Assembly: GCA_017399405.1 (NCBI GenBank)
Contig: JAFQCT010000004.1
Coordinates: 110,968-174,967, forward strand
DNA: 64,000 nt
Direction of reading: 5' to 3'
Source: Clostridia bacterium
GTDB lineage: Bacteria; Bacillota; Clostridia; Oscillospirales; Acutalibacteraceae
The translations under genes were made by a program, and so were the position numbers. The notes below the pieces were generated by a model. That model ran no database searches, was not told where the DNA came from, and worked only from the letters and a program-made list of their open reading frames with translations. Shown piece by piece: positions 36,130 to 40,958 of the stretch; position 1 is the stretch's first letter, and each line of letters starts with the position of its first letter.

Positions 36130-36225
36130 ATTCTAAAGACATATAATATGATATACCCCATTATCGTACTAATTGCGTTACCCCAAATAAGTACTATGAT
36201 AAAATTGCTTTTGAGGTGATATGCT

Positions 36226-36450
36226 ATATATCTATATCCAAGATTAAAAGATTTACGAGAAGATAGAGAACTAAATCAAACCGATGTGGGTAAATTATTG
36301 GGGACATCTCAAAAACAATATAGTCGTTGGGAAACAGGTGAAACAGAAATACCGTTTCATCATTTAATAACTTTAGCAAAACTATATAATGTGTCTTTAG
36401 ATTATATTGCAGGAATCACAAATAATCCGTATGAATTGCCTAAAAAATAA
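36226..36450 (+). CDS. Small XRE/Cro-type HTH regulator with no canonical start codon
   Basis: The frame encodes a complete small XRE DNA-binding protein: PRLKDLREDRELNQTDVGKL, then LLGTSQKQYSRWETGETEIP, then LAKLYNVSLDYIAGITNN. The expected methionine just before YLYPRL reads ATA at 36226, and an in-frame stop precedes it. The only nearby ATG (36221, after GAGGTGAT) is in another frame and stops after 8 codons. Either translation starts at ATA, or a one- or two-base slip in the TA-rich run has broken the gene. It has its own terminator. It could regulate the LicD/IspD cassette downstream, but this is positional inference only. Confidence 0.6.
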   Translation: MYLYPRLKDLREDRELNQTDVGKLLGTSQKQYSRWETGETEIPFHHLITLAKLYNVSLDYIAGITNNPYELPKK

Positions 36451-36500: not shown

Positions 36501-37289
36501 TTGGAATACACATTAAGAGAATTTCAGTTGTGTGAATTGGAAATGCTTAAAGAGGTATCCAAACGGTTACAAGCTGAAAATATAACATTTTATATTATAG
36601 GGGGCAGCAGTATTGGTGCATTGCGTCATCAAGGTTTTATACCTTGGGATGATGATATTGATATTGCAATAATGCGTCGGGATTTTGACAAGGCTGAAAA
36701 AACACTTGCAGATTTAGGCGATAAAATGTTTTATGATGCTGTTGAAAGTCATAAAATACCTGATGCACCATTGGGCCATGTATATATGTTAGATGGTGAT
36801 TCAATTGAAAATGCCCCACGAATTGATGTTTTTGCCATTGATAACATACCTGATAATTCATTAAGTGAAAAAATCCAGAAACTTTGTGCTTTGATATATC
36901 ATGTTTGTGTATTAAGACGACCTGCAGAAAATAGGGGTAAAATCAAAAAGATTTTTACATATATTGTTTGCAAGTTTTTTCCTAAATTTTTATTGGATTT
37001 TCTTCAAAAATTATCATATAAAATTGTTACAAAATGGAAAGATGACAATACAAAATATGTCTCTAACATTTATGGCGTAAGCGGTGACAATGAAAAAGTA
37101 CCGTCAGATTATTTCGGTAAAGCAAGATATGTGCCTTTTGAAGATGTTATTGTGCCAATTCCTGAAAAAGCTGAGGAATATAACACTCATATTTACGGAA
37201 ACTTTATGGAATTTCCACCTGAAGAAAAGCGTGTACCATCACACTTTAGATTCAGTAAAGAAAAATGTGGAGGATTAGTAAATGAATAA
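36501..37289 (+). CDS. LicD-family phosphotransferase
   Basis: The 262-residue protein belongs to the LicD/fukutin-like nucleotidyltransferase-fold family, which transfers phosphocholine or polyol phosphates from CDP-activated donors to sugars. The signatures are IIGGSSIGALRHQGF and then IPWDDDIDIA with the metal-binding D50-D51-D52 and D54. There is no membrane segment. The start is a TTG at 36501, set by GGGGGTGA. It overlaps the next gene by 8 bases, so the cassette is translated together. The IspD-like enzyme downstream suggests a CDP-polyol donor, by analogy with fukutin and FKRP, rather than CDP-choline; no choline kinase or LicC homologue is present. Confidence 0.87.
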   Translation: MEYTLREFQLCELEMLKEVSKRLQAENITFYIIGGSSIGALRHQGFIPWDDDIDIAIMRRDFDKAEKTLADLGDKMFYDAVESHKIPDAPLGHVYMLDGDSIENAPRIDVFAIDNIPDNSLSEKIQKLCALIYHVCVLRRPAENRGKIKKIFTYIVCKFFPKFLLDFLQKLSYKIVTKWKDDNTKYVSNIYGVSGDNEKVPSDYFGKARYVPFEDVIVPIPEKAEEYNTHIYGNFMEFPPEEKRVPSHFRFSKEKCGGLVNE

Positions 37290-39252
37290 ACTTATTCTTG
37301 AAGATGAATTATCTGAAATAGTTGGTTTTTATAAAAAACTCACAGGTAAATATATGCATCCGCCAAAGTTTGTTGGTATCAGCAAAAAAGGTAGATTCCT
37401 TTATGAAAACGCTATTGTTGTAAGTGATGCAAATCCATTGGGCAATCTTATGCTTCCTGCTATGGAGGGTATAAAGAAAAAAGGATTTTTTGCCTCAGTA
37501 AAAGGTTATTCTGTTTATGACGGAATTGAAAAATTTGCTGATTTGGAATACGATGATTGTGAACTCAATCATATTGAAAGCATTGATACTGCACCTGTAG
37601 TAAATAAGTGTGCTTTTATGCTCTGTATTGACTGTGCTAAACTTGAAAGTCGAGATGCTTGGTTTGACGCAATCAGAATGACTGCTGAATACGCGTCAAA
37701 GGGTAAAGATAATAAATGTACGGTTATGCTTATTCTTCCCGAATATCCACCAATTCCTGACGCTGAAATCACAAGTCTGTCAGAACGCGAATTTGGATAT
37801 TATATGGAGAAATATATTGAAAATCCTACCGAGTCACAGAAATACTTTGTAGAACTTGAAGCATTGTGCCGAAAAATTGTAAATGATGGTTACGAAAACA
37901 TCAATGTTATTCGTGTTGATAATCTTTTTGGACCTGATTCAAACCAAATTCGCACATTTGACCTTGAAAAATGCATTAAAGATGCGTTTGAAAACGGTGT
38001 TATGAAAATAACAACAGCAGATTATGAAAATAGTATTTCTTGTTCTTATATAAGAGATGTTGTAAAATTCGCAATCCAGACAGTTTATTGTGGCCGTAAA
38101 GGACAGATTTATAATTTCTGTTCACACATTACATCTATTGCAAATATTAAAAACACAATAAGAAATGAATTCAAGGAGCAACTTTCACTTTCTGTTGAAT
38201 CAGATGCAGTTGAGAGAAAAAATTGTCGTTGCCTTAATACACTTAAATTTTTCCAAGCAGGTTGGAAAAAAGCAAAGCACCTTTCTTTAAGCAGTTCTTT
38301 ATACAGAACAGTTTGTGATATAACGGGTGAAAAAGACAACAACAAAAAGAATGTTTCAATATATTCAGGTAAACTTACTCGCATAAAAGACCTTGAACTT
38401 ATGATGCTTAAGGATATTGACGATATTTGTGAAGCAAATGATATAAAATATTTCCTTTGCGGTGGAACAATGCTTGGTGCAGTACGATATGGACATAGTA
38501 TCCCGTGGGATGACGACCTTGATATAGGTATGCTTCGTAAAGATTTCGATAAATTCCGTAAAGTAGCACTTGAACAGAGTAAAGATATTTATAATTATTC
38601 AAGTCATTGGAATAAAAGCGGAAGTCACTATATCGTTGATAAAATCCGTCTTAACGGTACATACTTTTCAACAAGATATTCTTCTGTTCACGAATATCCT
38701 GACGGATTATTTATTGATGTTCTTGTTTATGACCAGACAAGCAATAATAAGCTTATAGGTAAGCTTCATAGCTATACTGTTCATATGCTTTCAAAGATTA
38801 TTGAAATTAGGTGGTACAACCGCCCAAGAAGAAATCCTAATTTCAGAAAAGAAATGGTGCTTTTGCCATTTATCCGCATTATTCCGCTTAACGCTTGGCA
38901 TAAAATTTACGAATTTGTACTTACACTATACAAAAATAAGAAAAATGCCAAATATGTAATTGATAGTACAGGAAAACTTCAGAAAAAAGGACCGTTCTCA
39001 ATTGAAGGTCTTGAAGATGTTCAGCGTGTTGATTTTGACGGTGGTTTCAAAGCACCTATTCCGGAGGATTATACAAATTATCTTACATTTGACTATGGTC
39101 CCGGTTATCTTCCTGAACCACCACTCACTAAACGAGCAGCTCCTCATAACTTTGCCCGCATAGACTTAGGTGAATACATTTTTGAAACAAGAACAACTCC
39201 TGAATACAGAGAAGTTAATGTACGCGGTGAATTATTTGAAAAAGAGGTATAA
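37282..39252 (+). CDS. Fusion: SDR epimerase/dehydratase-like domain plus LicD domain
   Basis: The 656-residue protein has two parts. Residues 1 to about 330 resemble an extended SDR sugar-nucleotide epimerase (INVIRVDNLFGPDSNQIRTF, CSYIRDVVKFAIQTVYCGRK, GQIYNFCS). They lack a clear GxxGxxG nucleotide loop at the N-terminus and a clear YxxxK pair, so the domain may bind but not oxidise. Residues from about 365 form a LicD domain (FLCGGTMLGAVRYGHS, then IPWDDDLDIG with D410-D412). The gene overlaps the upstream LicD gene and precedes the dehydrogenase by 4 bases. Fusion implies that modification and phosphotransfer act on one substrate or complex. The function is inferred. Confidence 0.82.
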   Translation: MNKLILEDELSEIVGFYKKLTGKYMHPPKFVGISKKGRFLYENAIVVSDANPLGNLMLPAMEGIKKKGFFASVKGYSVYDGIEKFADLEYDDCELNHIESIDTAPVVNKCAFMLCIDCAKLESRDAWFDAIRMTAEYASKGKDNKCTVMLILPEYPPIPDAEITSLSEREFGYYMEKYIENPTESQKYFVELEALCRKIVNDGYENINVIRVDNLFGPDSNQIRTFDLEKCIKDAFENGVMKITTADYENSISCSYIRDVVKFAIQTVYCGRKGQIYNFCSHITSIANIKNTIRNEFKEQLSLSVESDAVERKNCRCLNTLKFFQAGWKKAKHLSLSSSLYRTVCDITGEKDNNKKNVSIYSGKLTRIKDLELMMLKDIDDICEANDIKYFLCGGTMLGAVRYGHSIPWDDDLDIGMLRKDFDKFRKVALEQSKDIYNYSSHWNKSGSHYIVDKIRLNGTYFSTRYSSVHEYPDGLFIDVLVYDQTSNNKLIGKLHSYTVHMLSKIIEIRWYNRPRRNPNFRKEMVLLPFIRIIPLNAWHKIYEFVLTLYKNKKNAKYVIDSTGKLQKKGPFSIEGLEDVQRVDFDGGFKAPIPEDYTNYLTFDYGPGYLPEPPLTKRAAPHNFARIDLGEYIFETRTTPEYREVNVRGELFEKEV

Positions 39253-39256
39253 TATT

Positions 39257-40285
39257 ATGAAATATCGTGCTTTGGTTACTGCTGAAATGATAAATCCAAT
39301 GCTTGAGAAATTCAAAGACAAAATAGACTTTGAATTTGATGGCTATTGTATTGACCACGAAGTTATGCCTCACAATGAGCTTATTGAAAGAATTGCTGAT
39401 TATGATATTCTTGTCTGTGAATATGATACAATTGACAGAGCAGTTTTCGATAATGCAAAGAATCTTAAAATCATTATCTGTTGTCGTGGTGGTGTTAAAT
39501 CGGTTGTTGACATTGAAGCAGCAATGGAAAAAGGTATTATAATATGCAATAATGGCGGTAGAAATGCTAATGCAGTTTCAGATTTAACAATGGGTTATAT
39601 TCTTGATTTGACAAGAAATATTACACTTACAAATAATCTTATTTTTAACCGTGTTATAACAAGCGACATTAATACTTTGCCTGAAGAATATCGTGATACT
39701 GTGTGGGGACTTGACAACAATTCACCATTTATTCGATTCAGAGGTAAAAGCGTCAATTATATGACATTGGGACTTGTGGGTTGTGGTTGTGCAGGTCGCC
39801 TTGTTGCTGAAAAAGCAAAGGCTTTTGGTATGAAAGTAATTGCGTATGACCCATATATTGACCCTGCAAAAGTGCCTGATTTTGTTGAACTTGTAGATTT
39901 TGACACATTCCTTAATAGTGCTGATATTGTAAGCCTTCATTGTATTGTTTCACCTCAAACAAAGAAAATGTTCAATAAAGAAACTTTTGCAAAAATGAAA
40001 AAGGGCTCATATTTCATCAATACTGCTCGTGGTGAACTTGTTGTTGAAGAAGATTTGATTGATGCTCTTAATTCTCACCATCTTGCAGGTGCGGCAATTG
40101 ATGTTACAGTTGAAGAACCAATTGCTTCTGATTGTCCGTTGCTCACAGCAGAGAATCTAATCATTACACCTCATATTGCAGGTTCAGCTTACGATGTTCA
40201 GGTTTGTGGCACACAAATGGTTTGTGACACTCTTGAAGATTGGTTAGAAAATAAAAAACCAAGAAATTGTGTTGTATATAAATAG
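39257..40285 (+). CDS. D-isomer-specific 2-hydroxyacid dehydrogenase family protein
   Basis: The 342-residue NAD(P)-dependent enzyme has the nucleotide loop GLVGCGCAGRLVAEKAKAFG and the catalytic set Arg (INTARGELV), Glu (DVTVEEP) and His (TPHIAGSAYD), all in normal positions. The frame is open upstream, but GAGGTATAATATT places the start at the ATG at 39257, 4 bases after the fusion gene. In this cassette it takes the place that a polyol dehydrogenase (TarJ type) holds in ribitol-phosphate clusters, so it may make the compound activated by the IspD-like enzyme. It could also act on a phosphoglycerate-like acid. The substrate is unknown. Confidence 0.87.
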   Translation: MKYRALVTAEMINPMLEKFKDKIDFEFDGYCIDHEVMPHNELIERIADYDILVCEYDTIDRAVFDNAKNLKIIICCRGGVKSVVDIEAAMEKGIIICNNGGRNANAVSDLTMGYILDLTRNITLTNNLIFNRVITSDINTLPEEYRDTVWGLDNNSPFIRFRGKSVNYMTLGLVGCGCAGRLVAEKAKAFGMKVIAYDPYIDPAKVPDFVELVDFDTFLNSADIVSLHCIVSPQTKKMFNKETFAKMKKGSYFINTARGELVVEEDLIDALNSHHLAGAAIDVTVEEPIASDCPLLTAENLIITPHIAGSAYDVQVCGTQMVCDTLEDWLENKKPRNCVVYK

Positions 40286-40301
40286 GGTAGGGGTAAAGGA
40301 T

Positions 40302-40958
40302 ATGTCATCAATAGGAATTATACTTGCAGGTGGTATCGGCTCACGATTTGGTGCTGATAAACCTAAACAGTATTGTAAAATTTTCGATAAAGAAATGATT
40401 TGGTATTCAATCGATGCTTTTCGTCGTGCAAAATCCATTGACGATTTTATTGTTGTGGTAGATGCAAACGAAATGCAAAGTGGTCGTCTGGCACAAGAAT
40501 ATGGTGTAACACTTGTGCAAGGTGGTAATACAAGAAACGAATCATTTAAGAATGCACTTGATTATATCAATATAACTTTCCCTGATTGCGAAAAGATTAT
40601 TGAAAATAACGCAGCTTGTCCTATGATTACACCTGAGCTCATTGACGAGTTTATGGATTTGCTTGATGAGTACGATTATGTAAATACTGCATATAAAATT
40701 ACTGATGCGTTAGGCTCATATAAAGACAGAATTGCAAATCGTGAAGATTTTTATCTTATTCAGGCTCCTGATGCATATCGTTTTCCACTTCTTTATAAAC
40801 ATTTTGATAAAGACTCTGAACTTTGTCACCCTGCTCATCAGTTACCACTAACTGCTACAGAATATCGTTATTTTGATTATACCGATAATTATAAGGTTAC
40901 ATATCCTGACGATATAAAAATTGTAGAAATGATGATGACACGCAGAAATGCAAAATAA
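40302..40958 (+). CDS. IspD/TarI-family cytidylyltransferase (CDP-polyol or CDP-methylerythritol synthesis)
   Basis: The 218-residue enzyme has the CTP-binding loop IILAGGIGSRFGADKPKQY typical of IspD and TarI, and a later acidic region that binds metal. IspD makes CDP-methylerythritol for isoprenoids; TarI and animal ISPD make CDP-ribitol. Linkage to two LicD domains, an SDR-like domain and a dehydrogenase, with no other isoprenoid gene nearby, favours a CDP-polyol or related donor. The start is ATG 40302 after GGGTAAAGGA rather than an ATG at 40269 inside the previous gene. A terminator follows. Substrate assignment is inference. Confidence 0.85.
   Translation: MSSIGIILAGGIGSRFGADKPKQYCKIFDKEMIWYSIDAFRRAKSIDDFIVVVDANEMQSGRLAQEYGVTLVQGGNTRNESFKNALDYINITFPDCEKIIENNAACPMITPELIDEFMDLLDEYDYVNTAYKITDALGSYKDRIANREDFYLIQAPDAYRFPLLYKHFDKDSELCHPAHQLPLTATEYRYFDYTDNYKVTYPDDIKIVEMMMTRRNAK

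Follow-up and report, generated by a model that had tools for sequence, protein, structure and literature searches.

Analysis of a 64,000 nucleotide stretch of DNA from a Clostridia bacterium (the window, whose coordinates are used throughout unless a locus is named) revealed a cassette of four packed open reading frames (ORFs) on the plus strand, between 36501 and 40958, which is a mobile insert. The cassette encodes two LicD-family transferase domains, a short-chain dehydrogenase/reductase (SDR) domain, a D-2-hydroxyacid dehydrogenase (HADH) and an IspD-like cytidylyltransferase. The reading we favour, tentatively, is that this mobile cassette makes a small molecule, X, that is activated with cytidine diphosphate (CDP) and attached via a phosphodiester to a cell-surface glycan, and that X is a hydroxy acid. 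Judged from protein families and gene linkage, the underlying logic of a CDP donor and LicD transfer is likely.

The first gene (36501–37289, 262 amino acids (aa), TTG start) encodes LicD transferase 1 (LicD1), which contains the motifs GGSSIGALR and IPWDDDID. It overlaps by 8 bases the SDR-LicD fusion gene (37282–39252), which encodes an N-terminal extended-SDR domain, probably a pseudoenzyme (37282–38370, residues 1–363), followed by a LicD domain whose Pfam span is 38428–39099 (residues 383–606). The HADH gene (39257–40285, 342 aa) follows after a gap of 4 bases, and the gene of the IspD-like CTP:X-phosphate cytidylyltransferase (40302–40958, 218 aa) after a further 16 bases. A first-pass annotation, made from the window sequence, had described four packed genes with this domain content; all of the ORFs were found, with the overlap and gaps given here, the two LicD domains, the HADH and the IspD domain scored above their Pfam cut-offs, and the SDR domain was recognised by profile match and fold model.

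The IspD-like alignment was scanned against 84,980 species genomes and 80 of 98 loci were kept. Thirteen of these encoded an IspD-like protein 63–96% identical to that of the window (the close loci) and 67 encoded one at ≤44% identity. HADH adjoined the IspD-like gene in all 13 close loci (in L103 the contig end truncates it). Neither ORF search nor tblastn turned up an HADH relative at E 1e-5 in the flanks of the other 67 loci. The congener G401, whose contig is L101 (also L093), had the same four genes, with 74, 84, 89 and 96% identity for LicD1, SDR-LicD, HADH and the IspD-like protein respectively, the last being the best-kept gene of the pair. As G401 had all four genes and HADH adjoined the IspD-like gene throughout, the gene order is not chance. 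The genetic coupling of an IspD-type enzyme with LicD transferases and a dehydrogenase, on which the proposal of the annotation rested, was upheld, as was the co-occurrence of the genes in other genomes. By tblastn, the SDR-LicD fusion was present in eight close loci (L101, L102, L104, L106, L107, L108, L110 and L112), with its frame interrupted in the assemblies of both L107 (2320–4296) and L108 (4733–6702), and a separate SDR was present in four (L105, L109, L111 and L113). An SDR protein was thus present in 12/13 close loci, the fused and separate forms never occurring together within the flanks; neither form was seen in L103, where the contig ends too early. LicD was seen in nine close loci (the eight fusions and L113) compared to 31 of the 67 others, and close relatives of LicD1 (at least 57%) occurred among the close loci only in L101 (74%) and L107 (57%).

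The IspD-like enzyme (CYTIDYLYLTRANSFERASE) matched Pfam IspD with 82.3 bits, and fell below the cut-offs of both the IspD equivalog TIGR00453 (102.3 bits, cut-off 181.3) and the TarI model NF001183 (88.9 bits, cut-off 166). Its closest solved structures included 1vpa, a methylerythritol phosphate cytidylyltransferase (E 3e-15), 4jis, a ribitol-5-phosphate cytidylyltransferase (E 2.7e-14), and 4cvh, which we take to be human ISPD (E 2.9e-11). A midpoint-rooted tree of 83 rows placed a branch with 100/100 support between 69 IspD-like rows and 14 IspD/TarI rows, with the TarI-like references on the IspD/TarI side. The 14 cassette copies, i.e. the window and its 13 relatives, formed one group (100/99), with L134 and L160 as neighbours (98/90). 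The CTP-binding residues R15 and K22 and the C-terminal K198 were kept in all 14 copies. An alignment showed that the xDxxRP motif of IspD/TarI is replaced in the window by NNAACP (residues 102–107, 40605–40622). The Asp column of this motif was Asn in 14/14 cassette copies, whereas Asp was kept in 65 of the 67 other loci and in 4/4 reference rows (three of them TarI-like). The genome's own IspD has Asp. The Arg column was Cys in 14/14 cassette copies; the other loci had R (32), A (31), C (2), G (1) or S (1). In B. subtilis IspD, Arg15, Lys22, Lys209 and Asp104 are reported to take part in CTP binding, with Asp104 as a strictly conserved P-loop contact (PMC5099578). Going by the numbering, Asp104 would be the DxxRP Asp that is changed in the cassette. 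This Asp presumably also touches the acceptor.

The HADH matched 2-Hacid_dh_C (183.9 bits) and 2-Hacid_dh (63.3 bits) in Pfam and scored under the threshold of each of the 23 NCBIfam models among the matches listed, including phosphoglycerate dehydrogenase TIGR01327 (202.1 bits, cut-off 454). Across 13 cassette copies (L103, cut by the contig end, was left out) 128 of 347 columns were invariant. The window HADH keeps GxGxxG together with R258, E287 and H306, which we take to be the Arg/Glu/His triad of the family; the arginine is presumably the carboxylate binder. In the class, 11 other genomes had a match to the HADH at E 1e-50, and the neighbourhoods of the five highest-scoring non-cassette relatives (36–38% identity) were examined. 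An Aldolase_II gene adjoined the relative in all five, and FGGY kinases were nearby, confirmed by Pfam in four and judged by eye in the fifth. These neighbourhoods therefore point to a sugar-acid-like substrate, which they do not name.

Both LicD domains contain an IPWDDDxD (DDxD-type) motif and matched Pfam LicD (PF04991; gathering cut-off 22.6) with 100.8 bits for LicD1 and 115.9 bits for the fusion. The sole solved relative found at E 1 for either domain was FKRP (6kaj; E 1.4e-5 for LicD1 and E 1.2e-7 for the fusion), the fusion domain aligning across the GG..LGA.R / PWD.D.D region. A search of the genome for the LicD family found no gene besides the two in the cassette. To our knowledge, few CDP donors are known for LicD enzymes.

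The SDR-like half of the fusion had no Pfam match at E 0.1. It matched a profile of the stand-alone SDRs (hhalign 90.6%, E 1.3e-6) and had a confident predicted fold (pLDDT 88.7), which it shares with the CDP-fructose reductase 8V4G/8V4H, including an N-terminal helix before the Rossmann domain. The best solved match of the stand-alone SDR of L111 was 8v4g, a CDP-6-fructose reductase (E 1e-34), and this was equally the best solved match of a six-row profile of stand-alone SDRs, to which cassette loci contributed four rows (E 9.8e-69). All six stand-alone rows kept both GxxGxxG and YxxxK. By comparison, none of 11 fused rows had a complete GxxGxxG (L037 keeps two of the three glycines) or an aligned YxxxK, and as both changes were found in 11/11 fusions the fused domain is probably a pseudoenzyme. 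The domain does not look like a working reductase. Its decay suggests an ancestral system in which a ketose was activated before being reduced.

The insertion site was examined in the genus. The window cassette is flanked by rpoC (end 36082) and rpsL (start 41132). Of 40 genus genomes, 33 yielded rpsL, and 30 of the loci were compared: rpoC ended 164–229 bases upstream of rpsL in 24, 956–1440 bases upstream in three and was not within 1.5 kb in two, one of which is the window's own genome; a contig end interrupts the remaining locus. The DNA of the cassette is AT-rich, with a GC content of 32–35% compared to 41% in rpoB, rpoC and the rpsL-fusA stretch, and its third-position GC was 20–23% compared to 28–34% in rpoB, rpoC, rpsL, rpsG and fusA. 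Unlike the window copy, the G401 cassette adjoins rpmG-secE-nusG, so the cassette occupies different sites. The cassette HADH was present in 2/40 genus genomes, the window's own and G401, all other matches being ≤43% identical. Among 394 genomes of the order, a close IspD-like relative was found, besides that of the window's own genome, only in G152 (83%; its contig is L106), and no second cassette HADH was found among 391 genomes of the class. The 13 close loci were labelled Clostridia, Clostridiales or Oscillospiraceae, and an animal gut sample was named for eight of them.

From this gene set and its homologies we infer a route in which each substrate and step is put forward conditionally. 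HADH would reduce a phosphorylated, sugar-acid-like 2-oxo acid to a 2-hydroxy acid, before or after activation. The IspD-like enzyme, a well-supported member of its family, would join the phosphate to CTP to give CDP-X, in which X would probably be a carboxylated compound of aldonate or glycerate type and not ribitol or methylerythritol. X-phosphate would then be moved to a glycan, with release of CMP, by LicD1 and by the LicD domain of the fusion protein, whose family is equally well supported; with two LicD enzymes, two units could be added one after the other. The fused SDR domain, derived from a CDP-ketose reductase, would most likely be a non-catalytic donor-binding or scaffolding module. 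A hydroxy acid is favoured as X because the HADH triad is intact, because CpgD offers a precedent and because of the neighbourhoods of the HADH relatives. CpgD is a CTP:phosphoglycerate cytidylyltransferase that makes CDP-glycerate (PMC12275187; PMC13228409), so that its product, like that proposed for the cassette, is a CDP-activated hydroxy acid; it is reported to resemble inositol-1-phosphate and choline-phosphate cytidylyltransferases and to belong to a sphingolipid pathway, which would set it apart from the cassette enzyme. The annotation's idea of an unusual donor was strengthened, as the IspD and TarI cut-offs were missed, the DxxRP Asp is Asn and the dehydrogenase is not of TarJ type. 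The alcohol donor that it had proposed is not specifically indicated; the family to which HADH belongs suggests an acid.

A surface role may be argued from the neighbours of other copies. In L112 the gene order is HADH, IspD-like, TagF-like, SDR-LicD, ABC permease (26.1 bits, slightly below the cut-off of 26.9) and ABC ATPase. L107 additionally encodes an exporter ATPase with Wzt_C, a permease, a family-2 glycosyltransferase and a UDP-galactopyranose mutase; the mutase was also found in L108 and L110, and a TagF-like gene in L106.

Several observations weigh against the reading of X as a hydroxy acid moved by LicD to a surface glycan. The acid identity of X is not proven, and plain phosphoglycerate would require no dehydrogenase. 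The Asp-to-Asn change fits an altered active site and is not by itself proof of a new acceptor, as Asp104 is tied to the P-loop and CTP (PMC5099578). No HADH hit was found in L134 or L160, although both fall with the cassette copies in the tree and share Asn and Cys; L134 joins the IspD-like enzyme to a kinase-like region and has an upstream LicD (144.3 bits), and in L160 the contig ends inside the gene. LicD was not visible in L109 and L111, nor in L103 and L105, where contigs end nearby. Most cytosine and pyrophosphate contacts of 8V4G are not conserved in the fused domain, and the stand-alone SDRs retain only part of them, which weakens donor binding as the role of the fused domain. Finally, the window copy has no adjoining glycan genes, and the closest counterpart that its genome offers to the L107 permease is weak (21%).

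The alternative that survives best, although we regard it as unlikely, is that the IspD-like enzyme activates a ketose phosphate, e.g. fructose-6-P or ribulose-5-P, and the dehydrogenase reduces the CDP-ketose to a CDP-alditol, HADH having replaced an SDR that decayed into the LicD-fused pseudoenzyme. This would follow Campylobacter HS:5, whose CDP-6-glucitol pathway (HS5.18/HS5.17; 8V4G, 8V4H) includes the reduction of CDP-6-fructose to CDP-6-glucitol (PMC10918830), and pneumococcal Mnp1/Mnp2, cited in the same paper. The SDR part of the cassette has the fold and atypical N-terminal helix of HS5.17, the matches of the L111 SDR and the six-SDR profile to 8v4g agree with such a route, and so does the mutual exclusion of fused and separate SDRs within the flanks. 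Unlike HS:5, the window cassette has its SDR joined to LicD, without GxxGxxG or YxxxK, and carries the IspD-like enzyme and HADH. Four loci hold a motif-intact SDR alongside HADH, so HADH is not a simple replacement of the SDR. Furthermore, HADH retains the arginine that in this family binds a carboxylate.

Rather less probable is a CDP-ribitol cassette, in which a divergent TarI and an HADH in place of TarJ would supply LicD enzymes that add ribitol phosphate as FKTN and FKRP do. TarI and TarJ synthesise CDP-ribitol for teichoic acid in Gram-positive bacteria, and both systems place a cytidylyltransferase and an NAD(P) enzyme beside a phosphotransferase. The presence of 4jis among the closest structures and the match of both LicD domains to FKRP accord with this. 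However, the enzyme is below the TarI cut-off, the DxxRP Asp kept by the three TarI-like reference rows is Asn in all cassette copies, the TarI-like rows group with IspD in the tree, and no TarJ-type gene was found in the cassette, which has HADH and not a zinc alcohol dehydrogenase. The animal ISPD/FKTN/FKRP system likewise uses an IspD-family cytidylyltransferase to supply a CDP donor to two LicD-fold transferases, and bacterial ISPD-LicD fusions were previously noted (PMC4873967 for both). The cassette departs from it in its changed DxxRP and in the added 2-hydroxyacid dehydrogenase and pseudo-SDR. The annotation had drawn a specific parallel to the ISPD-fukutin/FKRP pathway; as the enzyme is no closer to 4cvh than to 1vpa or 4jis, the parallel is one of shared logic, not close kinship. 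Where animals put ribitol phosphate on dystroglycan, the cassette would probably use another building block.

It is quite improbable that the cassette is a decaying genomic island with no present function. Its sporadic occurrence in the genus, its AT-richness relative to the flanking rpo and rps-fus genes and the interrupted SDR-LicD frames of L107 and L108 would suit such an island, but all four window frames are intact and keep the motifs of LicD, HADH and CTP binding, and over the 13 close loci identity of the IspD-like protein is 63–96%. A redundant or housekeeping isoprenoid enzyme lying by LicD genes by chance, which the Pfam IspD match would allow, is scarcely credible given the linkage in 13/13 loci, the altered motif and a second, canonical IspD elsewhere in the genome (197.3 bits). 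The annotation did not mention this IspD; activity only on methylerythritol 4-phosphate in a genome with no other ispD was an outcome that it held would refute its proposal, and the presence of another ispD speaks against that outcome.

In the literature searched, no description was found of the HADH partner, the Asn-type motif or a decayed CDP-ketose reductase fused to LicD. A CDP-hydroxy-acid donor made by HADH and an Asn-type IspD-like enzyme, transferred by LicD enzymes and handled by the repurposed pseudo-reductase domain that one of them carries, could be an undescribed class of surface decoration, although this is doubtful. Through LicD enzymes, the surface chemistry of bacteria is connected to dystroglycan disease in humans. 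With its changed cytidylyltransferase and acid-type dehydrogenase, this short mobile cassette gives direct access to the search for a new donor. The fused pseudo-SDR would be a test case of a retired donor-pathway enzyme becoming part of a transferase. If X is an acid, gut-bacterial surface glycans would gain a carboxylate besides the phosphate charge.

Between rpoC and the cassette there is a helix-turn-helix ORF (HTH_3, 55 bits; 36226–36450), which was called only from a short GTG start (36286, 54 aa) because the nearby ATG at 36221 is out of frame. No glycan genes lie beside the window copy; surface-glycan genes are on another contig of the same genome, where a cluster (C15:2712–11563, L098) has an HpcH/HpaI aldolase adjoining another 2-hydroxyacid dehydrogenase.

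Clostridial loci L114–L127 lie on the same IspD-like side of the tree as the cassette enzyme, and in 13 of the 14 the IspD-like domain is fused to a kinase-like domain (~520 aa, e.g. L127:7998–9551). Unlike the cassette enzyme they keep the DxxRP Asp, and their X-phosphate apparently comes from the kinase-like domain, not from HADH; a LicD or TagF-like gene was in the flanks of 6/14. The kinase-like domain of the relative L094 matched APH_6_hur (27.8 bits) and that of L095 had no Pfam hit. L129, L130, L135, L148 and L153 encode pairs of LicD and a stand-alone IspD-like protein with a divergent gene, which in L129, the only one of the five tested, encodes a glycerophosphodiester phosphodiesterase; a downstream ORF of ~400 aa had no Pfam hit in L129. 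L142 (4888–8633) encodes a kinase-like protein, a 707 aa protein with CDP-alcohol phosphatidyltransferase and LPG-synthase-TM domains and then an IspD-like protein, a cluster that possibly makes an unknown phospholipid head group.

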